DNA of 64,000 nt. It comes from Candidatus Scybalomonas excrementigallinarum (GTDB lineage Bacteria > Bacillota > Clostridia > Lachnospirales > Lachnospiraceae). The notes under the pieces are model-generated. The model searched no databases and was not told the DNA's origin. It worked only from the letters and a program-made list of their open reading frames with translations. The stretch lies in contig DVIZ01000084.1 of the NCBI GenBank assembly GCA_018710905.1, positions 1 to 64,000 on the forward strand, given 5' to 3'. The position numbers and the translations under genes are program-made. Positions within the stretch are counted from its first letter, which is position 1; every line of letters starts with the position of its first letter. Shown here piece after piece: positions 4,849 to 16,336 of the stretch.

Positions 4849-4867
4849 ACAAAACAATTGAATAAAC

Positions 4868-4978
4868 ATCTTCAGGGCAGGGTGAGATTCCCGACCGGCG
4901 GTAAAGTCCGCGAGCGCTTAAGCGTATGATTTGGTGAAATTCCAAAACCGACAGTAAAGTCTGGATGAGAGAAGAGAA
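4868..4978 (+). promoter_or_regulatory. FMN riboswitch (RFN element)
   Basis: The conserved RFN blocks are present in order: AGGGCAGGGTGAGATTCCCG, ACCGGCGGTAAAGTCCGCGA, the variable arm around AGCGCTTAAGCG, TTGGTGAAATTCCAAAACCG, ACAGTAAAGTCTGGATGAGA and the closing GAAGAG. This aptamer binds flavin mononucleotide; in Firmicutes ligand binding promotes premature termination upstream of riboflavin biosynthesis genes. Two terminator hairpins lie downstream (5080 and 5217), so control by transcription attenuation is expected. The gene order ribD-ribE-ribBA-ribH downstream fits perfectly. Confidence 0.98.
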
Positions 4979-5079
4979 AAATCAATTATCGTTGTTTTAA
5001 CAGAAATCAATTTTATTGTTTTGATATGAATTTGATGACAGGTAAAAGTAGATAATTGAAATTAAAAGGAAATAAGTAG

Positions 5080-12681: not shown

Positions 12682-12907
12682 AATATAAGAATTGTAACTT
12701 CTACAGTTAGAGTGCTCAGGGGGAATAGCCCTTATGGTTTCTGGAAAGACAGAGTCAGATATTCCAAAGGAGAAAATCTTTGATTGTATGGTAGCATTGA
12801 GAGAAAAAAGTGTGAAAGCACCGATTCATATTGGAGATATATTAGTAGAAAATATTGCGAAAACCGGTGTGAATTTTATTGCCACAAAAGAAGTGGGAGA
12901 GAGATAA
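12682..12907 (+). pseudogene. Frameshifted remnant of a DUF1667 (glp-operon) protein
   Basis: Starting just after the glpK stop, the frame at 12682 reads NIRIVTSTVRV, and after a frameshift near 12730-12734 the frame beginning ATG at 12734 reads MVSGKTESDIPKEKIFDCM, then REKSVKAPIHIGDILVENI and GVNFIATKEV before a TAA at 12905. Joined, these match the C-terminal half of DUF1667 proteins (VTSTVRV...IPK..IF..M...APV.IGDV...V.ATK), which usually lie beside glycerol-3-phosphate dehydrogenase and glycerol kinase genes. The N-terminal cysteine-rich half is missing. I infer a deletion plus frameshift; a sequencing error could explain the frameshift but not the missing N terminus. Confidence 0.75.
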
Positions 12908-12916
12908 AAAATCCAA

Positions 12917-12945
12917 TTGACAAAAAATAGAAAATTTACTATACT
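12917..12945 (+). promoter_or_regulatory. Promoter of the ABC-F leader
   Basis: A perfect -35 TTGACA (12917-12922) and -10 TATACT (12940-12945, five of six) with 17-bp spacing. Transcription would start near 12952, giving a leader of more than 300 nt before the ABC-F gene. Confidence 0.88.
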
Positions 12946-12977
12946 GAAATCAATTATAATAAGAAAGTGGTGGGAAG

Positions 12978-13001
12978 ATGAGTAAAAATTTTTGTAGATA
13001 A
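12978..13001 (+). CDS. Putative 7-residue leader peptide of ABC-F attenuator
   Basis: A short reading frame, ATG at 12978 to TAA at 12999-13001, encodes MSKNFCR. It lies about 25 nt after the predicted transcription start with a purine-rich GTGGTGGGAAG just before it. Short upstream frames that stall ribosomes in the presence of lincosamides, streptogramins or pleuromutilins control several ABC-F resistance genes, and this one is followed by a series of hairpins ending in a terminator. Translation of the peptide is inferred. Confidence 0.6.
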   Translation: MSKNFCR

Positions 13002-13027
13002 TGATAACTCAATAAAGAGCGAAAGAA

Positions 13028-13050
13028 AACACAAATAGTTTGTGTTTATT
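13028..13050 (+). other. Leader hairpin 1 of ABC-F gene
   Basis: AAACACAAA and TTTGTGTTT form a 9-bp perfect stem with a 3-nt loop about 25 nt after the leader peptide stop. It probably protects or organises the leader RNA and could be an anti-antiterminator; no T run follows. Confidence 0.55.
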
Positions 13051-13100
13051 TCGAATGTCACTGCAAGAATTTTGTGTCTTTCTATAAAAATAGTGTTGTC

Positions 13101-13144
13101 TGCAAATATGAGAAATTCGTGAAACGTGTTTCTTATCGTTTGCA
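13101..13144 (+). repeat. Dispersed stem-loop repeat, copy A (ABC-F leader)
   Basis: TGCAAATATGAGAAA (13101-13115) pairs with TTTCTTATCGTTTGCA (13129-13144) with a small bulge and a G-U pair. Between the conserved GAAA and TGTTTCT lies an 11-nt spacer (TTCGTGAAACG). Copies with the same layout occur at 41487 and 48308. Its left arm contains TGAGAA, complementary to TTCTCA in the downstream terminator, so it might take part in antitermination. Confidence 0.65.
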
Positions 13145-13173
13145 TGAATTATGATAGCATTTTATCGTAGTCT

Positions 13174-13208
13174 AAAGTTCTCAGCGATTCGTTGAGAACT
13201 TTTTTTTG
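13174..13208 (+). terminator. Attenuator terminator upstream of ABC-F gene
   Basis: AAGTTCTCAGCG (13175-13186) and CGTTGAGAACTT (13190-13201) form a strong stem with a G-U pair, followed by seven further T. It lies 60 nt before the ABC-F start and after a functional-looking promoter, with no complete gene in between other than the leader peptide, so it is best read as an attenuator. Confidence 0.85.
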
Positions 13209-13269
13209 CGAAAACAACGCACAATTTGTTCGACTGCAGTGATCCGTTGATAGAATAGGAGGAACTTCA

Positions 13270-14814
13270 ATGTCACAAATTCAAATCAAAGACTTAACAT
13301 TTTATTATGAAGGCAGTTATGACTTAATTTTTGAACATGTGTCCTTTACATTGGATACTGATTGGAAGTTAGGTTTGATCGGAAGAAATGGAAGAGGAAA
13401 GACAACATTATTAAACTTATTGCTTGGAAAATTTTCTTATAGTGGAACGATTACAAAGTCAGTGGAATTTGACTATTTTCCATTTCAAGTAGAAGAGGAA
13501 AAGAAGGAACATAATACAATCGAATTAATAGAAGAATGGTACCCTCAATATGAGTTTTGGAAACTTTGTCGGGAACTTAATTACTTAAAAGTAGAAGCAG
13601 ATGTATTATATCGACCATTTTCTACTTTGAGTAACGGGGAACAGACAAAGATTATGTTGGCCATTTTGTTTTTAAGAGAAAATCACTTTTTATTGATTGA
13701 TGAGCCGACAAACCACTTAGATCAAGAAGGAAGAGAACTGGTAGCTGATTATTTAAGAAGAAAAAAAGGCTATATTTTAGTTTCGCATGATCGGTATTTT
13801 CTAGATCGATGTATTGATCATGTGATGGCAATTAACAAACAAAATATTGATGTGGTGCAAGGAAATTTCACCAGTTGGTATGAAAATAAAAGAAAGCAAG
13901 AGGAAAGCGAGGTAAAAGAAAATGAACGATTAAAAAAGGAGATTACTCGTCTAGAAGAGGCAACAAGAAGGACAAAGAATTGGTCCGATCATGTGGAAAA
14001 GACAAAGACTGGTAGAAGTCCTTTCGAGGCAAAAGTTGATCGCGGGTATATTGGACATCAAGCGGCAAAAATGATGAAGCGTTCTAAGGGAATACAAGAT
14101 AGAGCCAATGCCCAAATCGAAAAGAAAAAAGAGTTGATGAAAAATATCGAGCAGATGGAGGCATTAAAAATTTACCCTTTATCCTATCATAAAAAAGAGC
14201 TTTGTTCGATTAAAGAGGGGCGATTATATTATGGGGAAACTCTCATTACAGAAGGAATCAATGCTACGATTTTACAAGGGGAAGTAACCGTATTAGAAGG
14301 AAAAAATGGTTGTGGGAAATCTACTTTTTTAAAAGCGTTTGCTAAGTTGGCAAACGGACAGGAAGATGGAGAGGACATAAAAGTAATGGGAGAACAAGTG
14401 AATGTTCAAAAAGGGCTTGTGATTTCTTATGTACCACAAGATACTTCTTTTTTGAAGGGAAGTTTAGATGAGTACATGGAACAGTGGAACATGGATCCGA
14501 CGATTTTTAAAATGCTTCTTAGAAAACTGGATTTTTCGAGGGAACAGTTTGAAAAGCCGATGGAATCTTATAGTGCAGGACAAAAAAAGAAAGTATTATT
14601 AGCTCGAAGTCTATCCGAAAAGGCTCATATTTATATATGGGATGAACCTCTTAATTATATTGATATTTTTTCTAGAATTCAAATAGAGGAACTGATAAAA
14701 AAGAATCATCTTACAATGATTTTAGTGGAGCATGATAAAACATTTACGGAACATTTAGGGGATCAAATCATAAGATTAAAACGTGTTTCCAATGATGAAA
14801 AAGAGCAGGAATAA
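13270..14814 (+). CDS. ABC-F ribosomal protection protein, Lsa-like
   Basis: A 514-residue protein with two ATPase domains and no membrane segments, the plan of antibiotic-resistance ABC-F proteins that bind the ribosomal E site and displace drugs. Domain 1 has GLIGRNGRGKTT (about 36-47), a signature STLSNGEQTK and LLIDEPTNHLD; domain 2 has LEGKNGCGKST, YSAGQKKK and WDEPLNYID. The linker (about 205-300) is charged and contains ARRTKNWS-like and IGHQAAKMMKRSK segments typical of the Lsa/CplR group. Expected phenotype is resistance to lincosamides, streptogramin A and pleuromutilins. The start ATG follows TAGGAGGAA. The upstream attenuator supports drug-inducible expression. Confidence 0.88.
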   Translation: MSQIQIKDLTFYYEGSYDLIFEHVSFTLDTDWKLGLIGRNGRGKTTLLNLLLGKFSYSGTITKSVEFDYFPFQVEEEKKEHNTIELIEEWYPQYEFWKLCRELNYLKVEADVLYRPFSTLSNGEQTKIMLAILFLRENHFLLIDEPTNHLDQEGRELVADYLRRKKGYILVSHDRYFLDRCIDHVMAINKQNIDVVQGNFTSWYENKRKQEESEVKENERLKKEITRLEEATRRTKNWSDHVEKTKTGRSPFEAKVDRGYIGHQAAKMMKRSKGIQDRANAQIEKKKELMKNIEQMEALKIYPLSYHKKELCSIKEGRLYYGETLITEGINATILQGEVTVLEGKNGCGKSTFLKAFAKLANGQEDGEDIKVMGEQVNVQKGLVISYVPQDTSFLKGSLDEYMEQWNMDPTIFKMLLRKLDFSREQFEKPMESYSAGQKKKVLLARSLSEKAHIYIWDEPLNYIDIFSRIQIEELIKKNHLTMILVEHDKTFTEHLGDQIIRLKRVSNDEKEQE

Positions 14815-14852
14815 AAAAAGTTAAAAATTTATCATTATTTGAATCAATTGTC

Positions 14853-14971: not shown

Positions 14972-16336
14972 ATGAATACAAACGATTTAATGATTGAGAA
15001 CATGAACAAAAACAAAAAGCTTATAGCAATGTCTTTGCCAATCTTCGTAGAATTAATGTTACAGCTTTTGGTAGGTAATATCGATCAGATTATGGTAAGC
15101 CGTGTTTCTCAGTCTTCGGTGGCATCCATTGTCAATGCCAATCAAGTGATGAATTTAGTCATTATTGTACTTAGTATGTCAGCGGCGGCTACAACGATTA
15201 TTTTATCCCAATATTTGGGGGCAAAAGATGAAAAAAGTGCTTCAGAAATCTGCATGGCATCCATTGTGATGATTATTGTTGCAGGGCTTGGAACGACGAT
15301 TTTTATTGCGATTTTACATCAACCGTTGTTTCGGTTTATGCACGTACAAAAAGAAGTGTTAAGGGAAGCCAGTCTTTATTTATTAATTGTTGCTGGATTT
15401 AATGTAGTACAAGGTGTTTATCTTGTGTTCTCTGCTATTTTAAGAGCCTTCACATTAATGAAAGAAGTCATGTTCGTATCCATTATTATGAATGTGATGA
15501 ATATTGTAGGAAATGCAATTTTAATCAATGGATGGTTTGGATTTCCACAGTTAGGAGTTGTAGGGGCAGCTATTTCCACTGCTTGTAGTAAAGTAGTAGG
15601 AATGCTTTTAATGATTTACATTTTTAAGAAAAAAATCAATGTTCCACTTAGTCTTTCTTATTTAAGACCATTTCCATGGGGACATTTAAAAAAGATTCTT
15701 CGAGTGGCAGTGCCATCTGGAACAGAAAGTCTTTCTTATAATGCTTCTCAGATGTGTATTTTAAGCGTTGTCAATCAATTTGGAACTCTTGTAACAGCCA
15801 CAAAGGGATATTGTAGCATTTTTGCAAATATTTCTTATGTCTATGCATTGGCAATTGGAGAGGCAACACAAGTTGTGTTAGGTTATTTTATCGGTTCTAA
15901 AAGGCTTGACTTAGTGAGAAAAAGAGTTTATATGACAACCGTTATCGCTCTGATTACTTGTGTTGGAGTATCCACATTATTATTTTTAGGTGGAAATTGG
16001 GTCTTTTACATTTTTACAGACGCTCCTACGATTATTTCTCTTGGAAAGAAAATTCTTGGAATCGAGATTATATTAGAATTTGGAAGAGCGGTTAATATTG
16101 TTATGACCCGTTCTTTAGTATCCGTTGGAGATATAAAAACACCGACGATAGTAGGAATTATTTTTCAGTGGTGTGTTGCACTTGCTGGTTCTTACTTCTT
16201 TGGAATTCATTTAGGATTAGGGCTAATTGGTGTTTGGATTGCTATGACAATGGATGAGTGTTTAAGAGGAATTATTTTCTTTATTCATTTTGGAAGAGAA
16301 AAGTGGAAAAAGAATTGGAAATTTGAAAGCGAATAG
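14972..16336 (+). CDS. MATE family multidrug/cation antiporter
   Basis: A 454-residue integral membrane protein with twelve predicted helices in two similar halves. The N-terminal LIAMSLPIFVELMLQLLVGNIDQIMVSR and the later KKILRVAVPSGTESLSYNASQM are the paired half-starts seen in MATE transporters, which exchange drugs or metabolites for Na+ or H+. It follows the ABC-F gene by 157 bp but has its own promoter (14853-14881), so the two may form an antibiotic-defence neighbourhood without being one operon. Substrate unknown. A terminator follows directly. Confidence 0.93.
   Translation: MNTNDLMIENMNKNKKLIAMSLPIFVELMLQLLVGNIDQIMVSRVSQSSVASIVNANQVMNLVIIVLSMSAAATTIILSQYLGAKDEKSASEICMASIVMIIVAGLGTTIFIAILHQPLFRFMHVQKEVLREASLYLLIVAGFNVVQGVYLVFSAILRAFTLMKEVMFVSIIMNVMNIVGNAILINGWFGFPQLGVVGAAISTACSKVVGMLLMIYIFKKKINVPLSLSYLRPFPWGHLKKILRVAVPSGTESLSYNASQMCILSVVNQFGTLVTATKGYCSIFANISYVYALAIGEATQVVLGYFIGSKRLDLVRKRVYMTTVIALITCVGVSTLLFLGGNWVFYIFTDAPTIISLGKKILGIEIILEFGRAVNIVMTRSLVSVGDIKTPTIVGIIFQWCVALAGSYFFGIHLGLGLIGVWIAMTMDECLRGIIFFIHFGREKWKKNWKFESE

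Follow-up and report, generated by a model that had tools for sequence, protein, structure and literature searches.

A short upstream reading frame in a probable transcription attenuator of an Lsa-like ABC-F gene

Few attenuators of ABC-F resistance genes have been studied. An anti-antiterminator/antiterminator/terminator model was described for the leader of vmlR from Bacillus subtilis, an ABC-F gene for resistance to lincosamides, pleuromutilins and streptogramin A (Takada et al. 2022, PMC9226507). The cplR leader of Clostridioides difficile was described by Obana et al. (2023, PMC10201436), and stalling at the start codon was found on the upstream open reading frames (uORFs) of are5sc and tiaA (PMC12421871).

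The leader described here lies in a stretch of 64,000 nucleotides (the window) from Candidatus Scybalomonas excrementigallinarum, and quite likely it attenuates the transcription of an Lsa-like ribosome-protection gene under the control of a uORF. The features of the locus are as follows.

12917-12945, + strand: sigma-70-type promoter, TTGACA-17-TATACT; a relative of the same genus (L009) has TTGACA and TATAAT at the equivalent place
12967-12974, + strand: Shine-Dalgarno (SD)-like GTGGTGGG of the uORF, GAGGTGRR in relatives
12970-13085, + strand: whole first hairpin domain (anti-antiterminator), from fold prediction
12978-13001, + strand: uORF ATGAGTAAAAATTTTTGTAGATAA, reading MSKNFCR and a TAA stop, of a class common to 44 of 121 related upstream regions
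12985-12997, + strand: 5' strand AAAATTTTTGTAG of the anti-antiterminator helix, within the uORF, with 13 pairs to 13061-13073 and covariation in the family
13061-13073, + strand: strand a', CTGCAAGAATTTT, partner of the uORF in the off state and, in the on state, presumably of the 5' arm of the terminator
13092-13161, + strand: second hairpin domain, with an interspersed repeat as its core (13101-13144)
13172-13184, + strand: stretch of the terminator 5' arm, CTAAAGTTCTCAG, complementary to a' (duplex of -11.1 kcal/mol), with pairing predicted at transcript end 13190
13174-13208, + strand: intrinsic terminator, a 13-pair stem (13174-13186 / 13190-13202) followed by a T run
13270-14814, + strand: Lsa-like antibiotic-resistance ABC-F gene of 514 aa, from profile models and the match to LsaA, with AGGAGG before its start

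The initial annotation had claimed a near-consensus promoter, a seven-codon frame MSKNFCR, a strong terminator and a resistance-type gene, arranged as a uORF-controlled attenuator, and this account stands. The promoter matches the consensus at 11 of 12 positions, where the next best promoter-like site matches at 9 of 12, and both the terminator and the Lsa-like gene are present as listed. The frame belongs to a class conserved in relatives. The promoter, uORF and first hairpin are kept in L009, which has MYINSCR as its uORF, and the uORF and its pairing partner covary across the family.

The transcript would be expected to start at about 12952. The 260-nt leader folds to -81.9 kcal/mol, compared to -49.5 kcal/mol in dinucleotide shuffles (z -8.3, 0 of 200), and the region holds 2 terminator-like sites against 0.1 expected from shuffles. 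In the predicted fold, the outer stem of the first hairpin (12970-12979 / 13076-13085) covers part of the ribosome-binding site of the uORF. In the full-length fold, the GGA of the main-gene SD is predicted to be paired, at 0.86-0.91, and no conserved hairpin over this SD was found among the predicted folds; translation attenuation may also play a part. An Rfam search gave no family at gathering score within the leader. The sole match in the window is an ordinary FMN riboswitch upstream of riboflavin genes, at 4864-4980 (RF00050, 111.6 bits).

The 514-aa protein scores 447 bits against the NCBIfam model for ribosomal-protection antibiotic-resistance ABC-F proteins (NF000355), above the cut-off of 380. 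Against the model for the Lsa family (NF000167) it scores 688.6 bits over its full length, below the curated cut-off of 750, and it is therefore called Lsa-like. Its best solved relative is LsaA (E 1.8e-124). Both ATPase domains are intact, with the motifs DEPTNHLD and DEPLNYID and both catalytic Glu residues. In LsaA, Lys244 is needed for resistance and Phe257 is dispensable (PMC8196190); the Lys aligned to Lys244, which contacts the P-loop, is kept here, and the residue aligned to Phe257 is Val. Judged by its sequence, the protein would be expected to confer resistance.

The genes on either side of the locus can be described briefly. Behind glpK, at 12690-12907, there is a remnant of a DUF1667 gene, comprising the C-terminal half (Pfam PF07892, E 2.5e-17), with an apparent frameshift near a G run and without a start. 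Directly behind the ABC-F gene is a gene for a MATE-type transporter (14972-16336), with an apparent promoter of its own, TTGTCT-17-TATAAT, near 14849.

Of 299 genomes in the same family, 125 hold an Lsa-type gene, and 121 upstream regions from those genomes and from named genomes were compared. In 44 of the 121 regions (39 distinct), a purine-rich SD accompanies a uORF that is 6-8 codons long and belongs to the class M-x-x-x-S-C-(R/K), with MFNFSCR, MINFSCK, MIIISCR and MYNFSC as examples. Endings like that of the window, -NFCR or -DFCR, also occur in L018 and L013, and the window copy is a divergent member of the class with a rewired terminator. When a 35-base pattern of SD and uORF was searched over the 299 genomes, 29 of its 32 matches were upstream of an Lsa-type gene, and a reversed control gave no match in the same genomes. 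Use of the same uORF in front of other genes was considered and rejected: the three matches away from Lsa-type genes in the 299 genomes all carry two mismatches, and one of them (L163) falls inside an unrelated gene. No description of the 6-8-codon Ser-Cys class was found in the open-access literature searched.

Other upstream regions hold different candidate frames. A second leader class is seen about 150-330 nt upstream of more distant Lsa-type genes (L096, L106, L109, L112, L118 and others), where a 3-codon uORF, MRR, MRK or MRI, is followed by TAATTTACTTTTGA, which is complementary to a conserved downstream CAAAAGTGGATTAT. With a permissive scan, many other regions also seem to hold candidate uORFs of 3-4 codons, such as MRR, MRK and MRI. 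The Lsa-type genes of Lysinibacillus and Rossellomorea (L039-L043) have a conserved frame of 14-17 codons, MSDSDTIVTHVLLRTSR, about 150 nt upstream of the gene, together with a conserved terminator; in L033 and L037, a stretch that resembles this frame, IVTHDSLRIV..., lies beyond the terminator on its downstream side.

Within the Ser-Cys class, the strand a' (consensus GCARGAAAG) lies 45-115 nt downstream of the uORF and is the pairing partner of its 3' half. This pairing falls within the best 5% of controls with shuffled downstream sequence in 29 of 39 leaders, with a mean z of -2.5. Since a' was chosen as the best match within range, the choice favours pairing; the shuffle test (29 of 39) allows for this, and a test with slid registers does so only in part. 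Among 29 distinct segment pairs, 92.7% of cells are paired and six of nine pairs have changed on both sides; none of 500 shuffles was as good on any measure, and slid registers were far worse. In the window, the helix between 12985-12997 and 13061-13073 has 13 pairs, some of them kept as G-U.

The leader is real and conserved, and it most likely serves as a transcription attenuator that drugs induce, of the kind known from other ABC-F genes. What the computation shows is the set of parts, how they are conserved, the covariation in the uORF:a' helix and the refolding predicted for the leader. In the off state, the seven-codon uORF would be translated and its ribosome released; the 3' half of this frame would pair with a' (13061-13073), and most transcripts would end at the terminator (13174-13208). 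In the on state, a lincosamide, pleuromutilin or streptogramin A at the peptidyl transferase centre would stall a ribosome on the uORF, most probably on or close to the start codon, and the occupied uORF could not pair with a'. While the 3' arm of the terminator is still unmade, the freed a' would capture the 5' arm (AGAAUUUU with AAAGUUCU, and CUG with CAG), allowing RNA polymerase to read through. We infer that the uORF is translated, that drugs stall ribosomes on it, that the polymerase reads through and that resistance results; induction by lincosamides, pleuromutilins or streptogramin A would be expected by analogy, because of the studied ABC-F leaders (vmlR, cplR, are5sc and tiaA) and the Lsa-like gene downstream. 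As a counterpoint, the start region of the uORF is itself predicted to be partly paired in the off state.

A terminator lies between a' and the gene in 38 of 39 leaders, and in 33 of these 38 the uORF sequence recurs in its 3' arm, which pairs with a'. The window and L009 differ in that a' pairs with the 5' arm rather than the 3' arm. When leaders were folded without a ribosome, both the uORF:a' helix and the terminator formed in 10 of 10 tested; with a ribosome placed on the start codon, the helix was lost and a' paired with the terminator. For the full-length leader of lsa(E), the probability (P) of that a':terminator pairing is 0.99, and for seven other full-length relatives of the 3'-arm type it ranges from 0.01 to 0.87; with the 3' arm half made, P is near 1.00 in all 3'-arm relatives. 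For the window, a ribosome on the start codon raises P for a' and the 5' arm from 0.00 to 0.45-0.90 before the 3' arm emerges, with 0.90 at transcript end 13190 compared to 0.00 without the ribosome. At equilibrium, once the 3' arm is made, the terminator has a P of 1.00 with or without a ribosome in the folding model, and therefore the on state of the window would have to be kinetic. The a':5' arm duplex of the window is matched by 28 of 200 shuffles, which is not above chance on its own, and that of L009 by 4 of 200. Because the pairing is transient and the duplex alone is no better than shuffles, the switch is the least certain step for the window leader: its antiterminator is predicted only transiently, and is predicted more clearly in relatives including lsa(E).

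The same weakness suggests another reading, in which an attenuator that once worked has drifted through insertion of a repeat and replacement of its terminator, so that the window copy merely holds expression low with little or no response to drugs. The weak, transient a':terminator pairing fits this reading, as do a terminator that lacks the uORF-mimicking 3' arm which 33 of 38 relatives have, and an SD that is weaker than GAGGTGRR, with one base off in GTGGTGGG. Against it, all 13 pairs of the uORF:a' helix are retained, with the help of G-U pairs, and the antiterminator of L009 is of the same 5'-arm type and beats 196 of 200 shuffles. Because L009 shares this type, the rewiring of the terminator looks shared rather than accidental, and we consider drift to a nearly unresponsive leader unlikely.

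Slightly less likely still is a drug-specific arrest made by the Ser-Cys peptide itself, as for ErmCL or MsrDL with macrolides. The frame has 6-8 codons throughout the class and Ser-Cys is retained in most relatives, with TGC as the Cys codon in 36 of 39 leaders, as a functional peptide would predict. Losses of these residues, however, leave the RNA pairing in place. Cys is absent from the uORFs of L025 (MFIFSTK) and L154 (MINFSYK, with Tyr for Cys), where a' has changed to match (TTCTACA/TGTAGAA and TCTTAC/GTAAGA), and Ser is absent from the window and L018 (NFCR). RNA pairing therefore appears, in these alignments, to be a stronger constraint than the peptide. The Ser codons, moreover, are solely TCT and TCC, which are those that keep the pairing, and thus the conservation can be put down for the most part to pairing. 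In addition, toeprinting of related leaders gave start-codon stalls (PMC12421871). This argues that, in conserved leader peptides of this kind, selection can act on the pairing of the RNA and not on the amino acids.

A different antiterminator had been proposed in the initial annotation, in which opening of the second hairpin lets TGAGAA (13109-13114) pair with TTCTCA of the terminator (13178-13183) and so prevents termination. Both motifs are present and their letters are complementary, but this pairing is not borne out and is very improbable as the switch. The second hairpin is a dispersed repeat without a counterpart in L009, and in the folding model it stays closed (P 1.00) and is paired to the terminator with a P of 0.00 in every state tested. 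The repeat was found at 31 places in the genome at E<=1, about 16 of them at E<0.003; its copy in the window, at 13101-13144, has a core of about GAGAAATTCGTGAAACGTGTTTCTTAT, and similar hairpins are seen in the leaders of L068 and L014. Pairing of a' (13061-13073) with the terminator 5' arm is, in the folding model, a better antiterminator than TGAGAA with TTCTCA. Probably, the second hairpin has no specific role in the switch; like the middle hairpin in the vmlR model, it may sit as a spacer at the antiterminator's apex.

A chance layout, in which the glpK region upstream has an ordinary terminator and the ABC-F gene a promoter, is the least credible reading: single promoter-like and uORF-like sites are common by chance (4 promoter-like sites against 3.1 expected from shuffles, with no enrichment), but the terminator sits between the promoter and the gene, and conservation and covariation extend over 39 distinct leaders.

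The attenuator reading can be extended to the plasmid-borne lsa(E). The genome of the window holds a second Lsa gene (L002, G000:C177), for which the upstream region and that of plasmid lsa(E) are identical over 501 bp, and a search with this 501-base leader gave 111 plasmid records, 102 of which cover at least 80% of the query. By genus, the records are from Enterococcus (106), Listeria (3), Lysinibacillus (1) and Staphylococcus (1). The upstream region of L002 has an attenuator of its own at 1130-1500, with the uORF MYNFSC, and copies with an identical score occur in two other genera (G018, G110). The gene that adjoins the L002 Lsa gene reads like what we take to be a lincosamide nucleotidyltransferase. 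No description of the lsa(E) leader was found in the open-access literature searched.

The evidence is evenly balanced for a broader proposal, that lsa-type genes throughout the bacterial family are controlled by an attenuator class of their own, in which the coding RNA of an M-x-x-x-S-C-(R/K) uORF of 6-8 codons is the switch strand and has a copy in the terminator. In this proposal, the class has moved together with lsa(E) to plasmids in Enterococcus, Listeria, Staphylococcus and Lysinibacillus, making lsa(E) resistance drug-inducible rather than constitutive. Such a class would add a new kind of uORF, backed by covariation at the RNA level, to the few ABC-F attenuators that have been studied, and would show that gut-type bacteria hold inducible reserves of resistance to lincosamides, pleuromutilins and streptogramin A. 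If the lsa(E) leader works on plasmids (at least 102 records), susceptibility tests without induction could under-call resistance.

Of the leaders compared, that of plasmid lsa(E) (L002) shares with the window its uORF class (MYNFSC), the uORF:a' pairing and a terminator before the gene, and the window protein is 55% identical to the lsa(E) protein; the 3' arm of the lsa(E) terminator repeats the uORF and pairs with a', whereas a' of the window pairs with the 5' arm. As in vmlR (PMC9226507), a uORF within the first hairpin, the anti-antiterminator, is followed by a middle hairpin, an intrinsic terminator and an ABC-F gene, and the vmlR antiterminator has the middle hairpin at its apex, as may be the case here. 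The uORF of vmlR has only 3 codons (MIN) compared to 7 in the window, the sequences are unrelated, and the window has no clear hairpin that sequesters the main SD in the predicted fold. As in cplR, a 5' hairpin sequesters the regulatory uORF and a terminator precedes the gene; induction by drugs is described for cplR and would apply here by analogy. The cplR uORF is MR(I/M), and its terminator covers the main SD, whereas that of the window ends about 50 nt before it. LsaA belongs to the same protein subfamily as the window gene (ARE3/Lsa), and its uORF, given as MAGN in PMC10201436 (Fig. 3F), is of a different class from MSKNFCR and M-x-x-x-S-C-(R/K). The window thus has an antibiotic-resistance ABC-F gene downstream, a conserved uORF with an SD, an intrinsic terminator between them and a helix between the uORF and a downstream strand, as in leaders of the vmlR/cplR type. 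Most likely, the uORF class is new and the mechanism is of this known type.
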